A DNA stretch of 11,937 bases, taken from the NCBI GenBank assembly GCA_003152145.1, contig PLZL01000306.1:4517-16453 (forward strand). The letters run 5' to 3'. This document shows, one piece after another, positions 1 to 11,426 of this stretch (position 1 is its first letter; every line of letters starts with the position of its first letter). The DNA is from Limisphaerales bacterium (GTDB lineage Bacteria > Verrucomicrobiota > Verrucomicrobiae > Limisphaerales > UBA11358). The notes under the pieces are model-generated. The model made no database searches. It worked only from the letters and a program-made list of their open reading frames with translations, and was not told the DNA's origin. Position numbers and translations under genes: made by a program.

Positions 1-1293
1 ATTGAAGACCCAGTTGGTCACGCCGGTGTAGCGCAGGTCCAGGCGTTCACACACATCGAGCAAGTCGCGTCCACTGTGGCTCTTGAAAGATTGCGTTTCA
101 CCCTGGCTGGCAGACGGATCATACAACGTGCCGGTGCCGGCGGAACTGGCGTTCCAGTCGTCCTCTTGAACTCGCACCGAGGGGATGATGCTGAATGTCT
201 TGGTCGGCAGCCACATGAGGTTGGCGTTCATGACATACTCGTTCTTGTGGGTGCCGCCATTGAGTCCGGTGTAGCCATAGCTGAGGGCTGGATAAGCTGG
301 CGAATAAACCACGTCAAAGTCAGCTCCGTAAATCTGGCTGCCGCTAAAGGTGTCGTCGAGATTGGCATACATGAATCCGGTGGACAGAAACAGGTTGTTC
401 TTGATCCAACTTTCGGCAAAGGCATGGGCGCTCAACATGTCGTAGGAGGTGCCTTCCTGGTCGGTGACTTTTTGCTTAACGGTTTCGCCTGACCAGAAGG
501 TCAGCTTGTGGGCATCGTTCAAATCGCCGGTCTCATAGCTCACGCCCGCCCCGTAATTCACTTTCTTGTAGTGGTGGGTCAGATCAAGCTGGAACGCGTC
601 CGACTTTTCGTCCACGTCGAGAACCGTCGGATACACCCGGAACACAGTCATCGGGGAATTCAGCGGGTCGGGATGCACCGGCGCCCAAAGCGTTGAACTC
701 TCTTCGCCGTCGCGGACGCGGTGGCTGTATTTGAAGGTGATTTGCGGAACATTCGGTTTGGTCAGTCCCGCCTCGAATGAAATCAATCCGCGATCCAGCG
801 CCAGCACGTCGCCCGGCAGCGCATACGAACGCTGCTTGGCGGGGATGTATCCTCCGGTGCCGGAATCCCAAGTGCGGAAATTCTCAAAATGGAGACGGAC
901 AAAACCAAGATCGTCGCGGTTCAGGCCGAGGCCGACACTGTAATCGTGCTCGTCAAAAATGGAATGCCCGTCCAGCGTGAAGGTGGTTTTTTTGGCCACC
1001 AGGCTTTCGTAATGCAGGTCCGCGATGCCGCCGAAGACGCCGGCGTTGAGCTGTTTCCCCTGGGTTGCCTGGTTTGCATCACCCCGGGTCAGCATGGCGC
1101 CGCTGGAAAGCTCAATCCAATTGCTGTAGGTGTTGGTGCCGCCTTCATACCATTCTTGCGGGGTGATGGCGTCACCCGCCAGCGCCGCTTGGGTGCCGAG
1201 GACAATCAAGGACGCTCCCATGATATACCTCCCGAGGCTGGATTTCCGCCGTCCAGCGCGAGGCGATTTTGACTTTCGGTATTTCATTTTCAT
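1..1293 (-). CDS. Outer-membrane beta-barrel of a porin-cytochrome conduit (MtrB/PioB/OmbB-like), 3' end outside window
   Basis: Reading frame is open from an ATG at 1293 to the left edge (431 codons, no stop), so the C-terminus is missing. It starts with a long Lys/Arg-rich n-region, then a hydrophobic stretch (about residues 25-38) and a likely cleavage after 'QAALA', giving a mature N-terminus 'GDAITPQEW'. The rest is typical of a barrel: alternating polar/hydrophobic strands rich in Tyr, Trp, Asp, Asn and Thr (for example 'ADLHYESL', 'GLGLNRDDLGFVRLHFENF', 'RLDLRYTGVTNWVFN'), with no cysteine pairs binding heme. The gene begins 18 bases after the stop of the octaheme cytochrome, the arrangement known for porin-cytochrome pairs (MtrAB, PioAB, OmaB-OmbB). 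Inferred role: the sheath that lets the octaheme protein pass electrons across the outer membrane. Family assignment rests on context and barrel character; a generic porin is the alternative. Confidence 0.8.
   Translation of the reverse strand, partial: MKMKYRKSKSPRAGRRKSSLGRYIMGASLIVLGTQAALAGDAITPQEWYEGGTNTYSNWIELSSGAMLTRGDANQATQGKQLNAGVFGGIADLHYESLVAKKTTFTLDGHSIFDEHDYSVGLGLNRDDLGFVRLHFENFRTWDSGTGGYIPAKQRSYALPGDVLALDRGLISFEAGLTKPNVPQITFKYSHRVRDGEESSTLWAPVHPDPLNSPMTVFRVYPTVLDVDEKSDAFQLDLTHHYKKVNYGAGVSYETGDLNDAHKLTFWSGETVKQKVTDQEGTSYDMLSAHAFAESWIKNNLFLSTGFMYANLDDTFSGSQIYGADFDVVYSPAYPALSYGYTGLNGGTHKNEYVMNANLMWLPTKTFSIIPSVRVQEDDWNASSAGTGTLYDPSASQGETQSFKSHSGRDLLDVCERLDLRYTGVTNWVFN
1228..1233 (-). 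promoter_or_regulatory. Strong internal Shine-Dalgarno inside the beta-barrel signal peptide region
   Basis: GGGAGG lies six bases upstream of an in-frame ATG at 1221-1219, a better ribosome-binding arrangement than the GGAAG close to the ATG at 1293. Starting at 1221 would give 'MGASLIVLGTQAALA', a signal peptide without any positive n-region, which is poor for export; the 1293 (or 1287) start supplies 24 further residues rich in Lys and Arg. I kept the longer form. The internal site may be coincidental or an alternative start. Confidence 0.35.
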
Positions 1294-1311
1294 CGGCTTC
1301 CGTGACAATGA

Positions 1312-2181
1312 TTAAAATCTAAGCGACGGGCTCACGCGCGAACCGTGGACCGCCTCGTGGCAACCGGCGCTCCAACAGGCGCCCTGGCTCAATTGCGAGG
1401 TGTGGTCCACCCCGCCGATTAGTATTACGCCGGGCTGGTTAGGCTGTCTTTGCTGGAAATGGCACTTCAGGCACAGGTTCGCGTTGCGTTCGGTGAGCAT
1501 CTTGGCGTTGACGCTGCCGTGCGGGGAATGGCAGGTGGTGCAGCCTTCGCGCAGGGCCTCGTGTTCAAAGACAAAGGGGCCTTGCTGGGAAGGATGGCAT
1601 TGGACGCAGTTTCCTTCCTGTGAAAGCAGTTGGGTGCCGCCGCCGGCAAAGGCAACGCCCTTGTGCGGCGGATGGCACTTGATGCAGGTCATCCGGCCCT
1701 CGGGCACCGGATGATGGTTGGGCAGATTGAACTGGCCCCGCACGTCCATGTGACATTTATAACAGGTGTTCTCGACTGCGCGCGCCGGGTCGAGCGGGAA
1801 TCGCCCGCTCAACCCCTCCGGCTGTGGCCGGCCGGCGCTGAAGCTGAAAGGCGGTTTGGTTTCGCCGCCGGAATCCGAGTGCAGACTGCAGGGGCCGTGA
1901 CAGGATTCACAACCGGCGTCAATCCCGTTTTTGCCTTGAGCGATGAGCCGGGCATGATCGGCGGTCCGGAAGTTGCGGTAAATTTCCTCGTGACATTGTT
2001 CACATTCCGCGGAGCCGATGTATTTCGCGCCCGGCACGTCCGGGAGCACCACCGCCCGGCGGCTGAGAGTGCTGCAGGAAATCACCACGAACAGCAGGAG
2101 TCCCATGGCGGCCAGAGAGACCAGGCCGCGCAACCGTAGTGAACGGGGCAAAAGCCGGTGGAAAAAGGAAATGGTTTTCAT
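1312..2181 (-). CDS. Octaheme c-type cytochrome lipoprotein, DmsE/MtrA/OmaB-like, conduit subunit
   Basis: 289 aa. A hydrophobic N-terminus ends in 'FVVISC', which fits a lipobox with Cys36 as the lipidated residue. Seven CXXCH heme sites start at about residues 60, 91, 140, 166, 192, 214 and 237. An eighth, unusual CX4CH site (C-W-S-A-G-C-H, residues 269-275) is followed by 'EAVHGS', matching the end of DmsE/MtrA-type proteins. The 'CHSPHGS' and 'CLKCHFQ' segments also fit that family. Family members such as MtrA have ten hemes; eight equals Geobacter OmaB. It sits between a nonaheme cytochrome (25 bases after its stop) and the outer-membrane barrel (18 bases before it), so it most likely fills the barrel and relays electrons across the outer membrane. 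An extra Cys98 replaces a residue I would expect to be Gly in 'CHGPGS'. No good Shine-Dalgarno precedes the ATG, so translation may be coupled to the upstream gene. Confidence 0.9.
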   Translation of the reverse strand: MKTISFFHRLLPRSLRLRGLVSLAAMGLLLFVVISCSTLSRRAVVLPDVPGAKYIGSAECEQCHEEIYRNFRTADHARLIAQGKNGIDAGCESCHGPCSLHSDSGGETKPPFSFSAGRPQPEGLSGRFPLDPARAVENTCYKCHMDVRGQFNLPNHHPVPEGRMTCIKCHPPHKGVAFAGGGTQLLSQEGNCVQCHPSQQGPFVFEHEALREGCTTCHSPHGSVNAKMLTERNANLCLKCHFQQRQPNQPGVILIGGVDHTSQLSQGACWSAGCHEAVHGSRVSPSLRF

Positions 2182-2206
2182 GCGATTGTCAGTGGCGGAA
2201 TTTCAT

Positions 2207-3886
2207 TCATTGCAACACCTGCACCATCCAGATTTGTGCGGCGTTCAACAAGTTGATGGCCAGCGTCGGATTGTGAACGCCAAAACTGCCGTCGTTCAAG
2301 ACCAGATACAAATTGAACCGTGTCCGCTTGATCTTATCCGGAATCAGGGCTTGGCCGGCGGTGCCTGGCCCGGTGAACGTCACCGGATTGTTCAGTGTCC
2401 AGCCAGTCACGTTGCCGGCGGAATTGGTCTGCCATGTCAGGCCGCCCGGATTCGTGTATTCCCACGCCACCACGCCGTGGGTGGCGAGGAGCGGATTGGT
2501 CTGATTCGCCGCCCAGTGGTTCAAGGCCGTGATCAGCGCGGTCACACTGTTGGAGATGACCGGCGTGAGATAAAATTCCTCCAGCACCGCCGGCGGGATG
2601 AGATGACAGTTCAAACAAACTGTGTCGCTCGTGATCAGGGTGGAGTGATTCGGCGCACCACGGCGGTCGGGCTGCATGTGGCAGTCCGCGCACTGGTTGG
2701 TCAGATAAAACGTGCCGGAAATCGAGTAGCCGGCTGACGACGGCAGACCTGCATGGGTCCCCGGATTGAAGGTGGACGAGCCGTTGAGCAATTCGCCGAC
2801 GGAACCGAGCAGGAAGTTGTATTGCAGCGAACGGTGCGGCGCGAGGGAGGTGTCCGTCCACGCGGCCCCGCGATCGTTGTGGCACTGGCCGCAGAGGTTG
2901 ATGTTGGTGTTCGCGTTGTATTTGTTCGTGAACACGTCCGAGGTGGCGAGGAAGAAATCCGTGGTCGAGGAAACAGGGTTGCGGAGCTGCGCCGGATTGG
3001 CATTGGTCTGGTGAGGATCGTGACAGACGACGCAGGTGATGGCGACGTTGTAGTCGTTAGCAAGTGTGACGGCGGGGTTCAGTCCGTTGATCAGCGCGAG
3101 CCGGGCGGAGCCGGAATGACAACGGCCGCAACTGCTGATGTTGTTGGCGGATGCGCTCATGGATGCGAGCACGTCCGGCGTCACGGCGGCATGTTCGCTG
3201 GTGTTCCATTCTTCAAACGTCGGCGCGTTGGTGTAGGTGGTGTGGCTTGCGCTATGGCAGCCGCCGCAGGCGGTGGCGGCGATTTCAACGCGCGGGACCG
3301 CGGTGGGATCATCGGTGGCGGCCGCATGATTGGCCGCCGGACCGTGGCAATTTTCGCACTGAACGCCGCCGAGCAACGGCGTCGCCGTCGCACTGACAAA
3401 CCCGGTTGGCAAGCCATAACCAACGGTATGACAAGGCAGGCATAACGGATTGGTCTGACCGCCCAACGTCTTGAACTTCGGACTGCTGAAGGCGCTGGCG
3501 TGGAGCGTGTTCGTCACGTAACGGCAAATGCTCAAATGGCACGTGAGGCAGACCTTCGAGCCGGCATATTTCGGCGCAGGCCCGGAAACGCGGAAGAAAG
3601 CATTGCTGTAAAGCTTCGTGATGACGGCGTAGCGGACCAGGTTGGTGGCCTGGCCCAGCGCCACCCACGGGGCCAGCAAGCCGTTGCTTTTTTGATAGAC
3701 CTGGTAATAGCCGGAGGGCCCATCCCAGGTGACCCGCACGCCGTGGGTCAGCCTTTCCATACTACCCATGACCGGCTGTCCCGGCATTCCGCCCGGCTGG
3801 ATCGTGTTCAAATGCTGGACCGACTGGGATAGCAGGGTGGTCGTGGCTAAAAAAAACAACGTCACCGCGGAAATGAACAACCGCAT
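2207..3886 (-). CDS. Secreted nonaheme c-type cytochrome with N-terminal FFRV-type module
   Basis: 559 aa from the chosen start. 'MRLFISAVTLFFLATTTLLSQS' is a clear Sec signal peptide; the frame is open upstream to 4021, but earlier starts put 23-45 charged residues before it. AGGAAGGA lies 13 bases upstream, rather far. Residues 44-109 form a small beta-rich module ending 'SNAFFRVSG', resembling fibronectin-like units of verrucomicrobial secreted proteins. Nine CXXCH sites follow between about residues 113 and 428, including 'CHTVGYG', 'CENCHGPAANH', 'CHDPHQT' and 'CADCHMQP'. A heme-free C-terminus holds 'DGSFGVHNP', a motif I recall from multiheme cytochromes near the last helices. The order and spacing of hemes match the protein at 5300-7759, so the two are paralogs. 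It is the first gene of the conduit operon, which suggests an outer-face or extracellular electron acceptor (OmcB/MtrC-like role by position, not by sequence). It has no lipobox. Confidence 0.88.
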   Translation of the reverse strand: MRLFISAVTLFFLATTTLLSQSVQHLNTIQPGGMPGQPVMGSMERLTHGVRVTWDGPSGYYQVYQKSNGLLAPWVALGQATNLVRYAVITKLYSNAFFRVSGPAPKYAGSKVCLTCHLSICRYVTNTLHASAFSSPKFKTLGGQTNPLCLPCHTVGYGLPTGFVSATATPLLGGVQCENCHGPAANHAAATDDPTAVPRVEIAATACGGCHSASHTTYTNAPTFEEWNTSEHAAVTPDVLASMSASANNISSCGRCHSGSARLALINGLNPAVTLANDYNVAITCVVCHDPHQTNANPAQLRNPVSSTTDFFLATSDVFTNKYNANTNINLCGQCHNDRGAAWTDTSLAPHRSLQYNFLLGSVGELLNGSSTFNPGTHAGLPSSAGYSISGTFYLTNQCADCHMQPDRRGAPNHSTLITSDTVCLNCHLIPPAVLEEFYLTPVISNSVTALITALNHWAANQTNPLLATHGVVAWEYTNPGGLTWQTNSAGNVTGWTLNNPVTFTGPGTAGQALIPDKIKRTRFNLYLVLNDGSFGVHNPTLAINLLNAAQIWMVQVLQ

Positions 3887-4005
3887 TGCGCCGCGCAAGT
3901 CCTTCCTGCAACGCCAGAACCGGAAATCAAATATTGAGCTTCGAGGCGGCATCTTTTGTTCAGTTAAGAATAAAATTGCCTGCGGGCAAAGACTAAACCT
4001 CTCTT

Positions 4006-4020
4006 GCTGTATTCTTGCCA
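4006..4020 (-). promoter_or_regulatory. Candidate sigma-54 (-24/-12) promoter of the conduit operon
   Basis: Read on the minus strand, TTGGCAAGAATACAGCA carries GG and GC separated by exactly ten bases, the invariant spacing of sigma-54 promoters. Eleven or so of the consensus positions match, with a weak -12 (CAGCA instead of TTGCA). It lies about 120 bases upstream of the chosen start of the nonaheme gene, in an AT-rich divergent region without a convincing sigma-70 site on this strand. Chance matches of this quality are possible. Confidence 0.35.
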
Positions 4021-4077
4021 AAAATTGTCCGATTGACGGATTAGACGCAATTATTCGCCGTTTTATTATTTCCCGAC

Positions 4078-4105
4078 TTTACTTGAATGGGGGCACCTTC
4101 ATAAT
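4078..4105 (+). promoter_or_regulatory. Candidate sigma-70 promoter for the GldG-like gene
   Basis: TTTACT (4078-4083) and CATAAT (4100-4105) are 16 bases apart, giving 4 of 6 and 5 of 6 consensus matches. The expected start of transcription near 4112 would leave a leader of about 30 bases before the ATG at 4142. The site is in the divergent region between the plus-strand gene and the conduit operon. Confidence 0.4.
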
Positions 4106-4141
4106 GTCCGAAGATTGAAATAACAAACAGAGACGCCGCTG

Positions 4142-5056
4142 ATGAACTCATCCTCCGCCAACACTCCAAGCACTCCACGTCCAACCGCCCGGCCACCCGG
4201 CCGCCGCGCGCCGATTCTCGCGCTGTGTTTTTTTCTATTGGGAGTTGCCCTGACCATCGCATGGTATGAATACGGCAAAAACGGCTTGCCGGGACGAGGC
4301 GTCGCCGGGCTTTCCGGCGACACCCTCGATGTGTTGCGCCAGTTGAATGCGCCTGTGCAAATCCGGTTCTATTCGGTGCTACCTGCCGGGAGCGCCCCAC
4401 AAGCGCTTCAGGATTTTTCGCAGCGGGTGGATCATTTGTTGTCCGAATTTCAGAACGCAAACCCGGCAAAAATCCAGGTAATCCGGAACATCTCGGCGGC
4501 AGGGGCCAACGCCGACGCCGCAGCGGGCGACGGACTCCGGCCTTTCAACTTGGAAAAAGGCGAAGCTTGTTTTCTGGGCGTCACCGTGGCCAACGGGGAG
4601 CGAAAGGAATCCTTGGTGCAACTCCAGCCGGAATGGGAGTCGGCGCTGTCTTCTGACCTGGCCCGCGCGATTCTTCGCGTGGCCGCGGAATCGCCGCCGC
4701 CCGTGGTCGCGAAAAGCGTTCCTCTCACTCCCGCCATCACCAACGAAATCATGCGGCTCATCCCCGACATCAACGCCGCTTCGCCGGAAGATGCCAACCG
4801 GATTTTTCACAACGATTTTCTGAACCAGTGCGCCAAAGCCGGCGCCGAAATGGAGGCGCAAATCAACGCCGCCGCACAGAAGGTCGTCAATGCGCAGAAC
4901 AGTGGTTCAGCGGCGGAACTGGAAGCGGCTCGGAAACATTTGTCGCAGGTGCAGCTTGAACAAACCGAAAAGCTCAAGGAGGTCGCCGCCCATCTCCAGT
5001 TGCAACTGGATGCCTTCCAACAGATGAAGGCCGCCACGACCAACGCGCCAAAATGA
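4142..5056 (+). CDS. GldG/ABC-auxiliary-like membrane-anchored protein with C-terminal coiled coil
   Basis: 304 aa, the only plus-strand gene. Residues 1-23 are Pro/Ser/Thr-rich with a basic patch before one membrane helix (about 24-42), so the rest should be periplasmic. Residues 55-115 ('LSGDTLDVLRQLNAPVQIRFYS' region, then 'VDHLLSEFQNANPAKIQVI') resemble the start of the GldG/ABC_transp_aux family, which accompanies gliding-type and other uncharacterised ABC exporters. The family's usual C-terminal membrane helix is absent; instead residues 225-295 are Ala/Gln/Glu/Leu-rich and predicted coiled coil. No ATPase or permease gene is next to it, so a transporter function is not supported here. 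It has no CXXCH site. It is divergent from the conduit operon and convergent with the large cytochrome gene. Family call is by motif only; its role next to the cytochromes is unknown. Confidence 0.65.
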   Translation: MNSSSANTPSTPRPTARPPGRRAPILALCFFLLGVALTIAWYEYGKNGLPGRGVAGLSGDTLDVLRQLNAPVQIRFYSVLPAGSAPQALQDFSQRVDHLLSEFQNANPAKIQVIRNISAAGANADAAAGDGLRPFNLEKGEACFLGVTVANGERKESLVQLQPEWESALSSDLARAILRVAAESPPPVVAKSVPLTPAITNEIMRLIPDINAASPEDANRIFHNDFLNQCAKAGAEMEAQINAAAQKVVNAQNSGSAAELEAARKHLSQVQLEQTEKLKEVAAHLQLQLDAFQQMKAATTNAPK

Positions 5057-5058
5057 TC

Positions 5059-5188
5059 ATGACTAAATCCGAATGACGAAAGAATTGCCAATTACGAAAT
5101 CTGAAAATACCAAATATCTGGCGACGCCGCAATGGCATTGGGAGCTTCGTCATTCTTTAGTCATCAGGGTTTCGTCATCAGTCATTTC
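5059..5188. repeat. Inverted-repeat intergenic element
   Basis: Just after the stop of the GldG-like gene, 5059-5082 reads ATGACTAAATCCGAATGACG and onward, and 5145-5164 is its reverse complement apart from a three-base gap and one missing A. A second reduced copy of the right arm (TTCGTCATCAGTCATTTC) follows at 5170-5187. Arms are about 20 bases with about 60 bases between them. The wording 'AATGACGAA...ACTAAATCC' resembles dispersed intergenic repeats I recall from verrucomicrobial genomes, but copy number cannot be judged from one window. No coding potential is seen. Confidence 0.5.
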
Positions 5189-5230
5189 ATCTGGTCACTC
5201 CCTTGTTTTATAACGTCTCCCGGAAAGCAA

Positions 5231-5260
5231 AACTCCTCCCCGCTTGCGCGGGAAGGGGTT
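5231..5260. terminator. Bidirectional terminator-like hairpin between convergent genes
   Basis: A stem of 13 positions with one C-A mismatch and one G-U pair (core CCCGC / GCGGG around a TTGC loop) lies between the convergent stops at 5056 and 5302. T-rich sequence follows on both sides: GTTGTTGTTTCT on the plus strand and TTTTGCTTT on the minus strand. This fits a shared intrinsic terminator for the GldG-like gene and the nonaheme cytochrome gene. Confidence 0.6.
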
Positions 5261-5299
5261 GTTGTTTCTGGATGATTCCAGCTTGAATTCAGTCCGTGA

Positions 5300-7759
5300 T
5301 CACGGAGTGTGAACCACGCGGAAGAACATCTGCGCATTGTTCCGTGTCGGCGTCAGGTAACTGATGCTGCCGCCGGTGCCGGGGATGTTGGTGCTGATGT
5401 TATACCAGTTGCCAGCCAGCGCAGAAATGCCCTGAATGGTGTAGGTCGTGCCCACCTGGGTGTTGAAGGCGATTTCCGCCGCCGTGTAGATGGCAACGGT
5501 GTTGGTGGCGCCGTTGACGATGTTGCCGCCATTCATATAGATCACGCCATTGACGGCGGTGGAGCTGCTGAACGGACTAAGCCCCAGGGCATACATCATC
5601 CAATTGGGCAGCCCGTTCGAGTTGTTGATGCCGTAGAGACCCGCCGCCGGATTCGTGGCAAAGTTCGCGCCAAAATAGTTGGCTTGCCAGCTGTCCGGCA
5701 GACCGTCGCCGTTGGCGTCACCCGTCAGATTGCCGATGGACGCCTTGAGGAGGCCGACGGCAAAGGGTCCGTTATGCACGCCCATGCTGCCGTCCATCTG
5801 AACGAACTGGAAGTTGTAGGCGGCATTGAGGAACTTAGCCGGCATGTTGGTGTAGCTGGTAAGCGAGGTCTTGACCTTGCCATCCGCCACGTAGTTGTTG
5901 GGATTGGCTTGGTAGACCGCCGGCGGATAGAGCGTGGACAGCTTGTTCAAGAGCTGCTGGACCTGGGTCTGGATGCCTTGTCCGTAACCCACGCCGACAT
6001 AATCGGGAGCCGGGACGTCAAAGCTGGTGAGGGTGCCGTGACATTGGACGCAGACATCGGTCACCGGAACCTCGACGCCATTGGTATTGATGTAGCTCAT
6101 CTTGAAGGTGTGGCCGCCCGCCTTGGTGAAGGCCGGATTGGCATTGGTCACGCCGTTGACAACAACCGTGGCCGCCACCGGCTGCATATGGCAGCCGGCG
6201 CAGGTGTCGGTTATGACGTTGGCGTGCGGGGCGCTGGGTATGTTCTGGCCGTAGGTGATGGCGTTGACGCCTTCGAGCATGTCGCCCTGCGGGCTGTCAT
6301 GTGTGCCGAAGGCGGAGCCGCCGGCCCAGTTCGGCTGGCTTAAGGGGTATCGGGCCATCTGGTTGGTGACGGAACCGTTGCGGCTGTTGTGACATTCCAT
6401 GCAGAAGCCTCCGGCGCCGGCATTGGTCACGATGGTGCCATCGGACAGCGTGACATTATAGCCCATGCGCAACTGGTGCGGATTGGAAGCATCGTGCGGG
6501 TCATGGCAGGCCTGACAGGTAATCGGATAATAGGTCGTATTCGGCGGGTTAGCCGGTGAGGTATAGGCCGGGGCAGTGCCAGTATAGGCCAGGATATTGG
6601 TGGAAGTGGAATTCGCCCAAAAGATGTTGGTCGGATACTTATTCAGCATCGCCATGCCACCGGCAGTAGCCCAACCCGCGAAACCCGCCGCGGTGTGGCA
6701 GCGGACGCATTGCGGGCGGCTGATGCCGGACGGCGTCCGGGAGGCGGCCGCATGGAGCGAATTGTTCCATTCGGCGCTCTTGAAATCTGTGGTCATGTTG
6801 TCGTGGCATTGCGCGCAGTCGCCCGCCGCATAGTTGACGGAAATGGCGTTGGTGTTGCCCACCACGTTTTGCGAAAAGATGTGCTGGTTGCCGGGTCCGT
6901 GGCAGTTTTCGCACTGGATGTTGGCCAGACCGGCAACGGAGGGATAATTCGCCTGCATGCTCGCCCAATTGCCATTGGTCAAAACCGCCGGAAAGGTCCA
7001 GTTGTTGATGAGCGCCTCATCATCAAAGCCGAGATTGACGGCAAAAGAATTGGTGTCATAACCTAGCGTGTGACAGGAGATGCAGCTCTTGCTGTAATGG
7101 CTACTGACCAGGCCGTCAATACCCCTCGCGAACATCGAGGCGTGCGGCGTGTTGGTATAGGTGGGATAAATGCTAGGCACTTGCTTGCCATTAAAGACGG
7201 ATCCACCGCTGTGGCAACCGGCACAGGTCAGAACCCCAACATAGGTGCCCGCCGTGATCGTGACGGCCAGATTGGTCGAACCGCTGCCGACCGTGGTGAT
7301 GGTGGCATTGACGGTGTAGGACCCGATGAGATCCGGGCGGAAAAAGGTGCGACCCGCCAGTTGATACGCCGGGGTGGCGCTCTCGCCAGTATACCGGTCC
7401 GACGTGTTGTAGAGCGGCACGTTGTTGCTGAGCGGCCCGGCCGACAATGCGGTCAGCGACCCGGCCTGTTTAACCAGCGTCCAAGTAACTCCAACGATGT
7501 TGGACGGGGCAATCGCCGCGTTCACCATGGCATCCACATAGACCGGCTCGCCGAGCGCAACGTTTTTGCAGCCGGCGGAGAACTGGGCATTCGATCCGGT
7601 GAGGCCGTAGGTTTTGATTTCTGTCGGCGTCAATGGCCGCACGGTCAGCGAGCCACTTAATGCCGGAGCCGCCGCACGAACTGCGGCCGCAGTCCCAAGC
7701 AATGTCAGGGCCGCCGCGAGGCAGACCAGCGCTTTTCGGTATGAGTTTTGTTTTTTCAT
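5300..7759 (-). CDS. Large secreted nonaheme c-type cytochrome with PKD/Ig-like and C-terminal FFRV modules
   Basis: 819 aa from the ATG at 7759; an in-frame GTG at 7783 only adds eight polar residues before the signal peptide (residues 1-30, cleavage near 'AVRA-AAP'). Neither start has a clear Shine-Dalgarno. Residues about 33-175 look like a PKD/Ig-like beta domain ending 'FFRPDLIGSYTVNATIT'. Nine CXXCH sites lie between residues 179 and 574: 'CAGCH', 'CISCHTLGYD', 'CENCHGPGNQH', 'CAQCH', 'CVRCH', 'CQACHDPHD', 'CMECH', 'CAGCHMQP' and 'CVQCH'. 'HDSPQGDML' and 'DGSMGVHN' are further family motifs. The C-terminal 140 residues contain 'GDANGDGLPDSWQANYFG', a calcium-loop-like segment, and end with 'AQMFFRVVHTP'. 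The heme order matches the 2207-3886 protein. Likely exported, perhaps cell-surface or released, as an outer electron-transfer protein; no lipobox or anchor is seen. It follows hemA by 70 bases on the same strand. Confidence 0.9.
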   Translation of the reverse strand: MKKQNSYRKALVCLAAALTLLGTAAAVRAAAPALSGSLTVRPLTPTEIKTYGLTGSNAQFSAGCKNVALGEPVYVDAMVNAAIAPSNIVGVTWTLVKQAGSLTALSAGPLSNNVPLYNTSDRYTGESATPAYQLAGRTFFRPDLIGSYTVNATITTVGSGSTNLAVTITAGTYVGVLTCAGCHSGGSVFNGKQVPSIYPTYTNTPHASMFARGIDGLVSSHYSKSCISCHTLGYDTNSFAVNLGFDDEALINNWTFPAVLTNGNWASMQANYPSVAGLANIQCENCHGPGNQHIFSQNVVGNTNAISVNYAAGDCAQCHDNMTTDFKSAEWNNSLHAAASRTPSGISRPQCVRCHTAAGFAGWATAGGMAMLNKYPTNIFWANSTSTNILAYTGTAPAYTSPANPPNTTYYPITCQACHDPHDASNPHQLRMGYNVTLSDGTIVTNAGAGGFCMECHNSRNGSVTNQMARYPLSQPNWAGGSAFGTHDSPQGDMLEGVNAITYGQNIPSAPHANVITDTCAGCHMQPVAATVVVNGVTNANPAFTKAGGHTFKMSYINTNGVEVPVTDVCVQCHGTLTSFDVPAPDYVGVGYGQGIQTQVQQLLNKLSTLYPPAVYQANPNNYVADGKVKTSLTSYTNMPAKFLNAAYNFQFVQMDGSMGVHNGPFAVGLLKASIGNLTGDANGDGLPDSWQANYFGANFATNPAAGLYGINNSNGLPNWMMYALGLSPFSSSTAVNGVIYMNGGNIVNGATNTVAIYTAAEIAFNTQVGTTYTIQGISALAGNWYNISTNIPGTGGSISYLTPTRNNAQMFFRVVHTP

Positions 7760-7829
7760 AATTTTCGTGAATTTCGGTGTCACTTTTCAGGGTTCATTTT
7801 TGTTTCCATCACAAATTATTCATGGCCAT

Positions 7830-8918
7830 TCAGCTCCGGCTGGCGGCCGCGCCACCCAAGAACCAGCCTGGCAGCAGTTCGATCTCCTGGTCCGGACGTT
7901 TCTCCGGAACCGGTTGAATTTTCGTCATCAGCGCCGCCGTGCGCCGGGCGATGATTTCGTTGCACTTGGAAAGTTCCTGTTCCCGCATCCGGGAATTCTC
8001 GCGGACAATCGCCTCCAGGTGGTCAATGTTGTAGAGATAAACGTTGCTCAATTCCTCCACGTCCGGGGCAATGTCCCGCGGCACGGCGATATCAATTAAA
8101 ATCAGCGGACGGTTGCGTCGCATTGGCAGGATGGCGGCAATATCGTCCTTGTGCAGGATCGTCGTCGGGCTGCCGGTGGAACTGACGACAATATCCGCCT
8201 CCTTCATCGCGTTCATGCGTTCATCGAAGGGCAGGGGGCGTCCGCCGAATTCCGAGGCCAGCGCTTGGGCGCGTTCGACGGAGCGGTTGGCCACCAGCAC
8301 CAGACGGGCGCCCCGCTTGGCCAGATGGCGGACACAGGCCTCGCCCATTTTGCCCGCTCCCAAAATCATCACCGTCTTGTCAGACAAATCGCCGGCAAAA
8401 ACCTTCTCCGCCAGTTCCACGGCCACGCTGCCCACGGAAGTTGCGCCACGGCCAATGGCGGTGTGGGTGCGGATTTCCTTGCCGATTTGAAGCGCGGTCT
8501 GGAACAGCCGGTTCAAAACGCGGCCGGTCAACCCGGCCTGCTGCGCCGCCTGATAGGCGTTTTTCACCTGACCGGTGATTTCCGTTTCGCCGATGACCAT
8601 CGAATCAAGGCCGCTCGTCACCGAAAATAAATGCTCCACCGCCGCAACGCCTTCCTTGACGTAAATGCAGGGAGTCAAATCAACGTCTGTCGGGCAAAGC
8701 TGGCGGAAGAGGCGATCCACTTTGCCATGAACCCAGGATTCGGTGGTGCCATAAATCTCGACGCGATTGCAGGTGGACAGCAGCACAACTTCGTCCAGCC
8801 CGGCATTAAGCTTCAGCCGGCAGCCGTAGCAGGGCAGAAGCGACGGACGCACCGCCAGTTGTTCGCGCACTGGCACGGGCGCGGTCTTGTAACTCAAACC
8901 TGCGACAAATATGTTCAT
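7830..8918 (-). CDS. hemA: Glutamyl-tRNA reductase, short C-terminus
   Basis: 362 aa. It reduces glutamyl-tRNA(Glu) with NADPH to glutamate-1-semialdehyde, the first committed step of C5 tetrapyrrole and heme synthesis, in the cytoplasm. The catalytic motif 'LLSTCNRVE' has the nucleophile at Cys50, the same number as in E. coli; His96 in 'EHLFSVTSGLDSMVIGE' matches the conserved second residue. The NADPH domain shows 'ILGAGKMG' at residues 185-192, followed by 'VANRS' and 'STGSP'. GGGGAG eight bases before the ATG supports the start. The family is usually about 400-430 aa; here the protein stops soon after the first dimerisation helix ('SKCNEIIARRT'), with a Pro-rich tail. No continuing frame is visible after the stop, so this looks natural or an old truncation. 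An additional C30-x2-C33 pair has no following His and is not a heme site. It sits among cytochrome genes, consistent with heme demand. Confidence 0.96.
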   Translation of the reverse strand: MNIFVAGLSYKTAPVPVREQLAVRPSLLPCYGCRLKLNAGLDEVVLLSTCNRVEIYGTTESWVHGKVDRLFRQLCPTDVDLTPCIYVKEGVAAVEHLFSVTSGLDSMVIGETEITGQVKNAYQAAQQAGLTGRVLNRLFQTALQIGKEIRTHTAIGRGATSVGSVAVELAEKVFAGDLSDKTVMILGAGKMGEACVRHLAKRGARLVLVANRSVERAQALASEFGGRPLPFDERMNAMKEADIVVSSTGSPTTILHKDDIAAILPMRRNRPLILIDIAVPRDIAPDVEELSNVYLYNIDHLEAIVRENSRMREQELSKCNEIIARRTAALMTKIQPVPEKRPDQEIELLPGWFLGGAAASRS

Positions 8919-9095
8919 GCGAACATCTCCCCGGTGAAAACATATCCGCGCGACGTTCGTGTCATCATGCCGCAGCCGGCGCCAAACGTCCGGTCATCGC
9001 CGGTTTCGCCCGCCTGGCAGCAAACAATTCGGAATTGGCATACTTGCTTCACGAAACAAATCTACAAGACGGGGAAAAAGCCGCTGCTCATTCAT

Positions 9096-9121
9096 TGGCA
9101 AGCACTTGACATTTCTTGCCA
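9096..9121. promoter_or_regulatory. Perfect 7-bp inverted repeat overlapping a TTGACA
   Basis: TGGCAAG (9096-9102) and CTTGCCA (9115-9121) are perfect inverted arms 12 bases apart, and the plus-strand gap contains TTGACA (9106-9111). It lies 178 bases upstream of hemA. The shape fits a dimeric regulator site. The plus-strand -35 has no good -10 at 16-18 bases (CATATT is 19 bases away) and no plus-strand gene follows, so only the operator-like palindrome is proposed. Confidence 0.3.
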
Positions 9122-9277
9122 TCGGAACAGCATATTTCAATTAGGTAAAATAAATAATTATCCTTATGCCTAGTATAAACTAATGGCCTTTCCCCTCGTG
9201 TCGTCGCCGGTTGTGGCGGTTTCGCCGTTCAACAATCGAGCGGTGCAGGTGGGACGGTATGGCAGTCGAGCCCATCC

Positions 9278-9300
9278 GGCTGCGCAAGCTTTCCCGCAGC
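9278..9300. repeat. REP-like palindrome, copy 1
   Basis: GGCTGCG (9278-9284), AAGCTTT in the loop, and CCCGCAGC (9293-9300) form a hairpin with six perfectly paired bases (GCTGCG/CGCAGC). The same arms and the same AAGCT core recur at 11736-11758. It lies about 130 bases after the ImcH-like stop; no U-tract follows on the minus strand, so it is not a standard terminator. Confidence 0.5.
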
Positions 9301-9426
9301 ACAGTTAAAAATCACAGGCCAAAGGACAATCCGCAGACTGGACAAAATTTGAAAACGATCAGGCAAGGGACACATACCCGCACCAGCCTTCACCGTGTTC
9401 GTGATAATGCCCTCCGTCATCAGAAT

Positions 9427-10896
9427 CTACGGTCCGCCCGTGTGGCAATCGGAACAGGAAAGGTCGTAGTCTCCGCCTGTGTGTTTGAATTGCTGGCCGC
9501 CCGGCGTCATTTGTTCCAGTTCGGCCCCGCTGCCCTGCGCCAGGATGGTGTGGCAGGCGTTGCAATCGTTGGCCTTAACAATTCGGCCATCGTCGGCCTT
9601 GTGATTGCCGTCGTGGCAGCGGAAGCAGCCGGGCCAGATCATATGGCCGAGGTTGTCCGGATAAACGCTCCAGTTGGCCTTCATCTCGGGGAAGAAATTG
9701 TCACGGTAAATTTGTTGCACCACCGGGATCACGTCGTGGATACGCTGATCATTGGGATATCGGTCTGCCAGCGCGGTGGCGATGCCGTCGCGTGCCTGGG
9801 TGTCGTTGTCATATTTGCGGGTGAGGACATAGACCGCATTGGTTTTGATCCAGGGAATGGTGCGGTCAATCTGGCCGATTTCCATGGCCAGGTTGACCGC
9901 TTTGTCGGGTGGAACATAACGATGCGACGGACGGTTGTGGCAGTCCATACAGTCCATCGTGCGGATTTCCATTTTGGAAACGTCGTTGGTGAAATTTTTG
10001 GTTTTGAAAACGGTCACCACGCCCTGTTGGTCGGTGATCCGCACCCAGGGAATTTTCTGCCGGGCCTCATCCGTGGCGATGTATTCCACCTTGTTGCCCA
10101 CGACCATGTGCCAGTGGATGCCGCCGACTCGGCCGCGGGTGGGGTCTGCGCCGCCGACTTTGATCGAAAGCCGGATGGAATACGGTGAGTTGGATGCGTC
10201 ACCCTGAAAATAATTGAACGTGCGGTCCAGATCGCCGGAGAATTTTTGCGGCCAGTGACATTGCTCGCAGGTTTCCCGGGCGGGGCGCAAATTCTTGATG
10301 GGCGTGCCGATGGGGCGCGGATATTTGTTGAACATGACGGAATACACCTGATAGGAGCCTGAAAGTTTTGAACGGACGAACCAGCCCACCCCCGGCCCCA
10401 CATGGCAGGCCACGCAGGCCACGCGGGCATGCGGTCCGTGGTCGTGGGTCGTCAGTTCGGGTTTCATGACGCCGTGGCAGGTTTCGCCGCAAAACACGAC
10501 GGATTCGGTGAAATTAAAGGCGTTGTAACTGCCCACCGCCGAAAGCATGATGAACAGCAGACTGCTGATGACGAAGGTGACCAGGATGCGCCGGTCACGC
10601 GGGCGGGAAAGGTCAATTTGCACTGCTGCAACCATGAAATCGCCCCCCACGCGCTTGTGCCGCGTGCGCAGCACGCCGATCAAAGTCAAAATGAATCCGA
10701 AAACGAGAAACGCCGGCGTCACCATCCAGGTCAGGATGCTGATGTAAGGATTGGAAAAGTGCGCGACGGCATCCAGCATGAGCAGCATGAAGAACGAGAA
10801 CAGGCCGCCGATCACGATGACCAGCCCGGCCAAACTCATCCAATTTTGCAGCAGGGACGGCCGGTGGGGCGGCTTCCCCGTGTTCTCGGTGTTCAT
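9427..10896 (-). CDS. Inner-membrane heptaheme NapC/NirT-family cytochrome, ImcH-like quinol dehydrogenase
   Basis: 489 aa. Three membrane helices lie at about residues 20-42, 52-76 and 103-124, with a basic cytoplasmic loop ('RTRHKRVGG') between the second and third. After the third helix come seven heme sites: an unusual CX3CH (C-G-E-T-C-H, 136-141, followed by 'GVMKPE' as in NapC/NirT proteins), then CXXCH at 161, 210, 316, 424, 445 and 481. 'HDHGPHARVACVACHVGPG' is the classical NapC/NirT second-heme region. Size, helix count and heme count agree with Geobacter ImcH, the inner-membrane cytochrome needed for electron transfer to high-potential external acceptors; that identity is inferred. 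Likely reaction: oxidation of membrane quinol and transfer of electrons to periplasmic cytochromes, such as the monoheme protein encoded 200 bases upstream. No clear ribosome-binding site precedes the ATG. Other NapC-like quinol dehydrogenases are the main alternative. Confidence 0.87.
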   Translation of the reverse strand: MNTENTGKPPHRPSLLQNWMSLAGLVIVIGGLFSFFMLLMLDAVAHFSNPYISILTWMVTPAFLVFGFILTLIGVLRTRHKRVGGDFMVAAVQIDLSRPRDRRILVTFVISSLLFIMLSAVGSYNAFNFTESVVFCGETCHGVMKPELTTHDHGPHARVACVACHVGPGVGWFVRSKLSGSYQVYSVMFNKYPRPIGTPIKNLRPARETCEQCHWPQKFSGDLDRTFNYFQGDASNSPYSIRLSIKVGGADPTRGRVGGIHWHMVVGNKVEYIATDEARQKIPWVRITDQQGVVTVFKTKNFTNDVSKMEIRTMDCMDCHNRPSHRYVPPDKAVNLAMEIGQIDRTIPWIKTNAVYVLTRKYDNDTQARDGIATALADRYPNDQRIHDVIPVVQQIYRDNFFPEMKANWSVYPDNLGHMIWPGCFRCHDGNHKADDGRIVKANDCNACHTILAQGSGAELEQMTPGGQQFKHTGGDYDLSCSDCHTGGP

Positions 10897-10976
10897 AAAT
10901 CAGTCAAGTTGCCATCGTCGGAATTTGCCTGGCTTTGCATTTGTCAGTTTTCCCGCAGGCAAACAATCCCACTCCC

Positions 10977-10998
10977 GGCTGCGCAGGCATTTTCCGCC
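10977..10998. repeat. Degenerate REP-like sequence, possible third copy
   Basis: GGCTGCGCAGGCATTTTCCG resembles the copies at 9278-9300 and 11736-11758 on the left arm (GGCTGCGCA) and in the T-rich loop, but the right arm is CCGCC, not CCCGCAGC, so it would fold poorly. It lies in the 200-bp gap between the monoheme and ImcH-like genes. Confidence 0.22.
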
Positions 10999-11072
10999 CG
11001 GCGTGCCGGATTCGTCTCGGCTCTTTCCGAAGCAGCCAACCCTGCCGCCGCGCTTCACGGCCGCGTCATTCA

Positions 11073-11091
11073 CCCGGCAAGGGCTGCCGGG
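11073..11091 (-). terminator. Hairpin after the monoheme cytochrome gene
   Basis: CCCGGCA and TGCCGGG form a perfect 7-bp GC-rich stem with a five-base loop, beginning six bases after the TAA at 11099-11097. No U-tract follows on the minus strand. It may stop or slow transcription or protect the 3' end of the cytochrome mRNA, so that the small cytochrome is made in excess over the ImcH-like protein. Confidence 0.4.
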
Positions 11092-11096
11092 GTCAC

Positions 11097-11426
11097 TTAC
11101 TTCTTAAACGCCCGCACATACGCGACCAGTCCCTTGATGGCGTCGTCTGACAGGCCTTCAGCCGGCTTCATCACGGTCTTGTCATCCTTGTCCTTCACCC
11201 CTTCTTTGATCGCCTTGAATGCGGCATCGTCCTTCATGTCTGCCTGGACTTTGGCATCCGTGAAGTCCTTGACGCCAAGTTTCTGGCCTATTTTGGTATC
11301 ACCTTTGCCTTCGGCGCCATGGCACTTGGCGCAACTGTTGTCGTAGGTGGTTTTCGCGTCTTCCGCGCGAGCGGACAGTGCGGCAACAGTCATTGCCGCG
11401 ATGCCAAGAACGAGTAGTTTTTTCAT
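11097..11426 (-). CDS. Periplasmic monoheme class I cytochrome c
   Basis: 109 aa. Signal peptide 'MKKLLVLGIAAMTVAALSARA' with cleavage before 'EDAKTTY' gives a mature protein of about 88 residues. One heme site, CAKCH (32-36), lies near the mature N-terminus in 'YDNSCAKCHGAEGKGD', the usual c6/c553/cbb3-type layout. The probable axial Met is Met86 in 'VMKPAEGLSDDAIKGLVAYVRAF', where the final helix is typical of the fold. A GGAAA-type ribosome site lies about ten bases upstream of the ATG. It is a small soluble electron carrier. Its position before the ImcH-like gene suggests it shuttles electrons between the inner-membrane cytochrome and the outer-membrane conduit, but such cytochromes also serve oxidases and peroxidases, so the partner is inferred. 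Confidence 0.93.
   Translation of the reverse strand: MKKLLVLGIAAMTVAALSARAEDAKTTYDNSCAKCHGAEGKGDTKIGQKLGVKDFTDAKVQADMKDDAAFKAIKEGVKDKDDKTVMKPAEGLSDDAIKGLVAYVRAFKK

Follow-up and report, generated by a model that had tools for sequence, protein, structure and literature searches.

A verrucomicrobial locus with 34 heme sites probably encodes an MtrAB-type electron conduit with ImcH-like and OcwA-like partners

A stretch of 11,937 nucleotides from a Limisphaerales bacterium (Verrucomicrobiota; assembly GCA_003152145.1, contig PLZL01000306.1, positions 4,517 to 16,453; hereafter the window) encodes five cytochromes next to an outer-membrane barrel, which raises the question whether these proteins form one path for electrons across the cell envelope. 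The general idea of a verrucomicrobial porin–octaheme pair is already known: He et al. (2017) described a porin of at least 20 predicted strands with an adjacent periplasmic octaheme cytochrome and, in several cases, an extracellular multiheme protein, proposed it as an extracellular electron conduit and called the system novel, stating that homologs of the Geobacter and Shewanella conduits were absent (PMC5615132). A 2019 paper again pointed to putative verrucomicrobial conduits (PMC6344600); the pair suspected since 2017 has been connected neither to a quinol oxidase nor to known families. Our analysis points to such links: the locus probably encodes an MtrAB-type trans-envelope conduit that electrons would enter through an ImcH-type protein and leave, on the outside of the cell, through OcwA-type ones.

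Six-frame translation yielded 34 heme motifs (32 CxxCH, one CX3CH, and one CX4CH), all located in five cytochrome open reading frames (ORFs), and no CxxCH was found on the plus strand or outside these five ORFs in the whole window. Since all 32 CxxCH motifs are confined to five minus-strand ORFs, their clustering is not due to chance. The minus-strand genes follow each other in the order monoheme cytochrome, heptaheme cytochrome, HemA, nonaheme MHC9a, nonaheme MHC9b, octaheme MHC8, and barrel (Table 1), with gaps of 200 bases between monoheme and heptaheme, 508 between heptaheme and hemA, 46 between hemA and MHC9a, 25 between MHC9b and MHC8, and 18 between the MHC8 stop and the in-frame ATG of the barrel. 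This ATG, at 1293, is the likely start of the barrel gene, which runs off the window start; the 604-residue ORF of MHC9b likely starts at the ATG at 3886, which leaves about 559 residues. The recount thus reproduces what a first-pass annotation of the sequence had listed: five cytochromes with 34 heme sites (1+7+9+9+8), an octaheme 18 bases from a barrel, and inner-membrane, periplasmic, trans-outer-membrane, and secreted cytochromes encoded together at one locus. The truncation of the barrel, the hemA gene, and the plus-strand DUF7088 gene come in addition to that list. A search of a plasmid collection gave no match.

The octaheme and the barrel are the parts that tie the locus to a known conduit. 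Against solved structures, MHC8 matches MtrA of Shewanella (6r2q_A) with E 1.9e-21 as a single sequence and E 1.3e-42 as a 25-member profile; by sequence comparison it is homologous to MtrA, and its gene adjoins that of the barrel as in the Shewanella MtrAB system (PDB 6R2Q; PMC7198977). In contrast to MtrA it carries eight hemes instead of ten as well as a lipobox-like VISC, with Cys36 conserved at 90% or more, and no MtrC homolog was found here. Its best NCBIfam match is the decaheme family of Geobacter GSU2203 (OmcK), NF041028, with 176.8 bits (cut-off 325), a profile that matched none of 14 named controls; the DmsE-family decaheme profile TIGR03508 gave 156.8 bits (cut-off 192.2), the ten hemes that mark the MtrA/DmsE family being eight in MHC8. 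The alignment locates this difference: 23 of the 25 aligned rows are octahemes, whose eight heme columns are common with the decaheme acidobacterial relatives L022 and L023, and the latter have two extra hemes between the second and the third that are gone in the other 23 rows. Hemes 3–8 of MHC8 pair best with hemes 5–10 of MtrA in the profile match. Because of these heme columns and this pairing, MHC8 lacks counterparts of MtrA hemes 3 and 4.

For the barrel, a model of a 93%-identical homolog gave a 26-strand barrel for which structure comparison returned MtrB as the best fold match, all other listed folds having lower Z-scores. In the model the barrel has the MtrB fold and, as in Shewanella MtrB (6R2Q; PMC7198977), 26 strands, without a link in sequence. 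A TonB-type receptor or an ordinary porin was rejected on account of the 26 long strands and the lower Z-scores of the other listed folds, though the Foldseek E-values of TonB receptors lie close. Among curated families, the one matched by most barrel members is NF041027, the family of Geobacter GSU2204 (12 of 47 members at E 1 or less, best E 7.7e-6; P0001 scores 12.8 bits, under the cut-off of 350), and TIGR03016 is matched by two of the 47 (best E 0.00018). TIGR03509 returned no row for the window barrel at E 0.1 nor for any of the 47 members at E 1; its absence from all eight genomes searched is uninformative, because the 14 controls were silent too. The GSU2204 family is labelled an MtrB/PioB-family barrel (PMC13188914), and GSU2203/2204 are listed as up-regulated on hematite and magnetite (PMC4070692). 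The first-pass annotation had regarded the conduit as an independent version. Because the octaheme is homologous to MtrA by sequence and the modelled barrel is MtrB-folded, with GSU2203 and GSU2204 as the nearest curated families, an independent origin is ruled out and this part of the annotation has to be given up.

Entry of electrons is suggested by the heptaheme cytochrome. Hydropathy places three N-terminal membrane segments at about 18–47, 51–78, and 102–124, in agreement with the three-helix NapC/NirT cytochrome noted earlier, and CGETCH (CX3CH) at 136 lies just past these helices, followed by six CX2CH. Among the homologs listed (120 of 7999 matches), CX3CH is kept in 120 of 120 and the six CX2CH in 119. 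ImcH of the Geobacter group combines the same elements, namely three N-terminal helices, an adjacent CX3CH, six CX2CH, and a NapC/NirT region, in 495–519 residues (PMC6295460); the window protein, likened to it by this signature, has 489. That 2018 survey gives a similarity of 31.5–49% for Geobacter ImcH outside its group, lists one verrucomicrobial and three Omnitrophica homologs, describes ImcH as so far known solely as a quinol oxidase, and states that it found no mtrAB/mtoAB adjacent to imcH, whereas here the ImcH-like gene is linked to an MtrAB-like pair (PMC6295460). The entry protein also bears on the direction of flow. If the same parts passed electrons to the quinone pool, with Fe(II) or a partner cell as the donor, as is thought for PioAB/MtoAB, the conduit would run inward: in principle, MtrAB-type wires can conduct both ways, Fe(II) oxidisers use homologs of PioAB/MtoAB (PMC6344600, PMC6295460), and nothing in the sequence fixes the direction. 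We consider this unlikely, as Fe(III) reducers are the only bacteria for which ImcH homologs have been reported, which points to quinol oxidation (PMC6295460); moreover, no Cyc2-like gene lies within the window.

On the outer side, both nonahemes lead to the same structure. For MHC9b (profile of 49 sequences) and MHC9a (profile of 13), the best PDB relative is 6i5b_A, with E 4.8e-22 and E 7.3e-15, respectively; in a single-sequence search 6qvm (7.5e-11) was slightly ahead of 6i5b (5.3e-10), and one shuffle control with heme Cys and His fixed gave no match at E 1 or less. The structure 6I5B is that of OcwA, a terminal reductase with nine hemes on the cell surface of Thermincola potens; OcwA is unrelated to MtrC/OmcA and consists of a c554-like part (hemes 1–4), an NrfA-like part (hemes 5–9), and a C-terminal bundle of three helices, with two open heme sites at the five-coordinate hemes 2 and 5 (PMC6703420). 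In the printed match pieces, all nine heme motifs of MHC9b align with those of OcwA in order; the significant pieces cover hemes 2–6, and those with hemes 1, 7, and 8–9 are not significant alone. MHC9b shares with OcwA the c554-like N-terminal part and a C-terminal DGSxGVHN stretch, conserved in 114 of 120 homologs. A poor model of MHC9b (mean predicted local distance difference test, pLDDT, 52.8), for this reason kept out of any fold search, places C-terminal helices at 432–460, 517–532, and 540–558, which may correspond to those of OcwA. MHC9b differs from OcwA in its Gram-negative setting, putatively behind a barrel conduit, and in its extra beta domains. By eye, a beta-type stretch ending in FFRV occurs in both nonahemes, C-terminal in MHC9a and N-terminal in MHC9b. 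The outer partners indeed appear not to be OmcB/MtrC-like, as had been proposed, but neither are they purely verrucomicrobial inventions, since both match OcwA.

This family membership admits a second function. MHC9b also matches cytochrome c554 and octaheme nitrite reductases (in Pfam c554 and, weakly, c552), and purified OcwA, with its open sites, slowly reduces nitrite and hydroxylamine (PMC6703420); as members of an NrfA/c554/OcwA superfamily, the nonahemes might act as extracellular oxyanion or nitrogen reductases on soluble nitrite, hydroxylamine, or another substrate, fed by the conduit as DmsEF feeds DmsAB. This is quite improbable in our view, because all nine motifs are CxxCH with no CxxCK as in typical NrfA, and the nitrite turnover of OcwA is far under that of NrfA, its proposed role being that of a terminal reductase for solid acceptors (PMC6703420).

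Whether these parts belong together was assessed from their distribution. Via the octaheme, 24 related loci were found, 19 of them with verrucomicrobial titles, many of the fetched stretches ending early. The barrel gene adjoins the octaheme in 22 of the 24, MHC9b lies directly upstream of the octaheme in 19, and the fetched stretches contain a DUF7088 gene in 16, MHC9a in 12, hemA in nine, and an ImcH-like gene in eight, one being a fragment. In related loci, homologs of the monoheme lie next to either the barrel or the ImcH-like gene; at L011, L016, and L018 the barrel is directly followed by the monoheme and ImcH-like genes. The phylum to which the L004 genome belongs was sampled by an even draw of 288 genomes: an octaheme relative occurs in 17 of these (that of G281 is weak and has no barrel) and an ImcH-like gene in 26. 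Both are present in 15 genomes against 1.5 expected (Fisher 2.4e-16, kinship not corrected), 12 of which carry the two genes no more than 15 kb apart on the same contig, and the barrel gene stands beside the octaheme in all 16 genomes with a strong octaheme match. The recurrence of octaheme, barrel, and ImcH-like genes in relatives thus agrees with the first-pass expectation; with the barrel modelling as MtrB-like, neither of the two outcomes named in that annotation as refuting the conduit has occurred. MHC9b occurs in just one of the 288 and is therefore no general partner of the conduit; from these counts, the inner and trans-outer-membrane parts widely travel together, and the nonaheme of the window belongs to one lineage. 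One could take this to mean separate systems, with the octaheme–barrel pair as one unit and the ImcH-like protein and the nonahemes in other periplasmic or surface reactions: MHC9b is missing from 287 of the 288 genomes, 16 of which keep octaheme and barrel, 508 bases separate the ImcH-like gene from hemA, and a plus-strand gene splits the nonahemes. With MHC9b immediately ahead of the octaheme in most related loci and the ImcH-like gene so often near it, we hold such a separation to be very improbable.

Several results nevertheless weigh against a single outward conduit. The octaheme stays under both curated cut-offs (NF041028, TIGR03508). For the barrel, the Foldseek superposition on MtrB has a TM score of 0.50–0.55 and a root-mean-square deviation of 14.7, TonB-type receptors follow close behind (E 1.1e-10), and its profile gave no match to PDB chains at E 10 or less, hence no sequence match to MtrB. 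The MHC9b model failed. The ImcH-like gene is missing from 16 of the 24 fetched stretches, often where the contig or the 10-kb flank ended; the association statistic ignores shared ancestry; 11 genomes have an ImcH-like gene and no octaheme match, two the reverse; and the one genome of the draw with MHC9b is the seed genome.

For the outward MtrAB-type conduit we propose the following course. The ImcH-like heptaheme would oxidise menaquinol at the inner membrane, and the monoheme cytochrome would shuttle the electrons through the periplasm to the lipid-anchored octaheme, which, seated in the 26-strand barrel, would act as a shortened MtrA-like heme wire. Outward transfer is the reading with the best support, and its steps up to the barrel rest on homology and co-occurrence. 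What the data show directly is the gene content, the heme counts, the homologies, the fold of the modelled barrel, and the co-occurrence in genomes; where the nonahemes are located, whether a complex forms, and the flow of electrons with its direction and acceptor are inferred. Secretion signals, gene order, and the relationship to OcwA further suggest that one or both nonahemes could dock on the barrel from outside and pass electrons to an external acceptor, for which Fe(III) oxide, humic quinones, or another cell are candidates. A more specific version, which we put forward tentatively, is a mosaic wire with its own hemA: an ImcH-type quinol oxidase, a shortened eight-heme MtrA-type wire in an MtrB-type barrel and, taking the place of MtrC/OmcB on the outside, OcwA-type terminal reductases whose hemes are open, i.e., a Gram-positive surface reductase family behind a Gram-negative conduit. 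Compared by description, the clusters of He et al. are alike in a porin of 20 or more strands, an adjacent octaheme, a multiheme partner, and their occurrence in Verrucomicrobia; the section describing them makes no mention of an ImcH-like gene, an OcwA-like partner, or hemA (PMC5615132). The present analysis newly places the octaheme–barrel pair with MtrAB, notes the absence of two hemes, links the pair to an ImcH-like gene, and adds an outer module of the OcwA type and a second hemA in the cluster. In open-licence PubMed Central we found no report of ImcH–MtrAB gene linkage or verrucomicrobial OcwA-like proteins, which is no proof of absence, and the relevant passages of PMC12133095, PMC12545173, and PMC11475568 hold nothing on Verrucomicrobia. 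If the proposal is correct, one lineage combines the ImcH, MtrAB, and OcwA parts that are known from Geobacter, Shewanella, and Thermincola, respectively, the outer modules of porin–cytochrome conduits are exchangeable, the eight-heme octaheme is a natural test of the minimum length of an MtrA-type wire, and verrucomicrobial extracellular respiration gains a concrete, testable footing.

Table 1. Genes of the window, listed from its end to its start.
Feature	Position	Strand	Supporting match or motif
Monoheme cytochrome c, 109 aa, secreted, putative periplasmic carrier	11097..11426	-	PF00034 42.3 bits, CAKCH
ImcH-like inner-membrane heptaheme cytochrome, 489 aa, NapC/NirT region	9427..10896	-	six CxxCH + CGETCH
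Glutamyl-tRNA reductase HemA, 362 aa	7830..8918	-	TIGR01035 361.2 bits (cut-off 209.55)
Nonaheme MHC9a, 827 aa, secreted; OcwA-like heme part and long C-terminal beta-type domain	5300..7783	-	nine CxxCH
Divergent DUF7088 (GldG-like) membrane protein, one helix	4142..5056	+	PF23357 37.2 bits
Nonaheme MHC9b, secreted, OcwA-like putative outer partner	2207..4021	-	nine CxxCH; PF13435 c554 62.8 bits
Octaheme MHC8, MtrA-type lipoprotein, 289 aa, putative trans-barrel heme wire	1312..2181	-	seven CxxCH + CWSAGCH
MtrB-like outer-membrane barrel, 436 of about 714 aa inside the window	1..1308	-	26-strand model of 93%-identical homolog

Two further genes accompany the cytochromes. Two hemA copies are present in each of seven verrucomicrobial genomes tested (G001–G007), and in all seven one copy lies on the conduit contig, about 10 kb or less from the octaheme; the clustered extra copy may supply heme for the conduit and help cover the demand of 34 hemes. 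A truncated, cluster-specific HemA was rejected, as both copies in these genomes match only to about 328–357 of 416 profile positions. At the Omnitrophica locus L020, a single run (1480–16086) holds iron–sulfur (FeS) and NrfD proteins, ImcH-like, HemA, ResB, CcsA-type, octaheme, barrel, cysG, hemC, and cobA-hemD, so that cytochrome maturation genes (ResB/CcsA-type) and hemC/cobA-hemD flank octaheme and barrel. At L024 (13111–20116), the barrel is followed by hemE and hemN and, at a greater distance, by the large subunit of a nickel–iron hydrogenase, which scores below curated cut-offs. The DUF7088 gene, on the plus strand between the two nonaheme genes, is a conserved neighbour outside the claimed wire; its orientation is opposite to that of the nonahemes in 16 of the 24 related loci.

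The related loci also show variations of their own. G001 has a second octaheme–barrel pair, L036 (G001:C10:139394-140134), whose octaheme is 52% identical, with neither a nonaheme nor an ImcH-like gene within the 20 kb fetched. L013, on a contig titled Acidobacteria, carries a nonaheme of the verrucomicrobial type, an octaheme (65% identical), and a barrel, which suggests mis-binning or transfer. Upstream of the cluster, L002 (877–2592) and L024 (325–2496) encode CbcL-resembling multihemes with a C-terminal cytochrome b561-type domain, which scores 46.0 bits (over) and 29.1 bits (just under) against a cut-off of 30.1. At L017 (13728–17080), a tetraheme, a DsrO-like FeS protein, and a DsrP-family (NrfD) protein with a cyclic-nucleotide-binding domain are encoded between the barrel and the ImcH-like gene.

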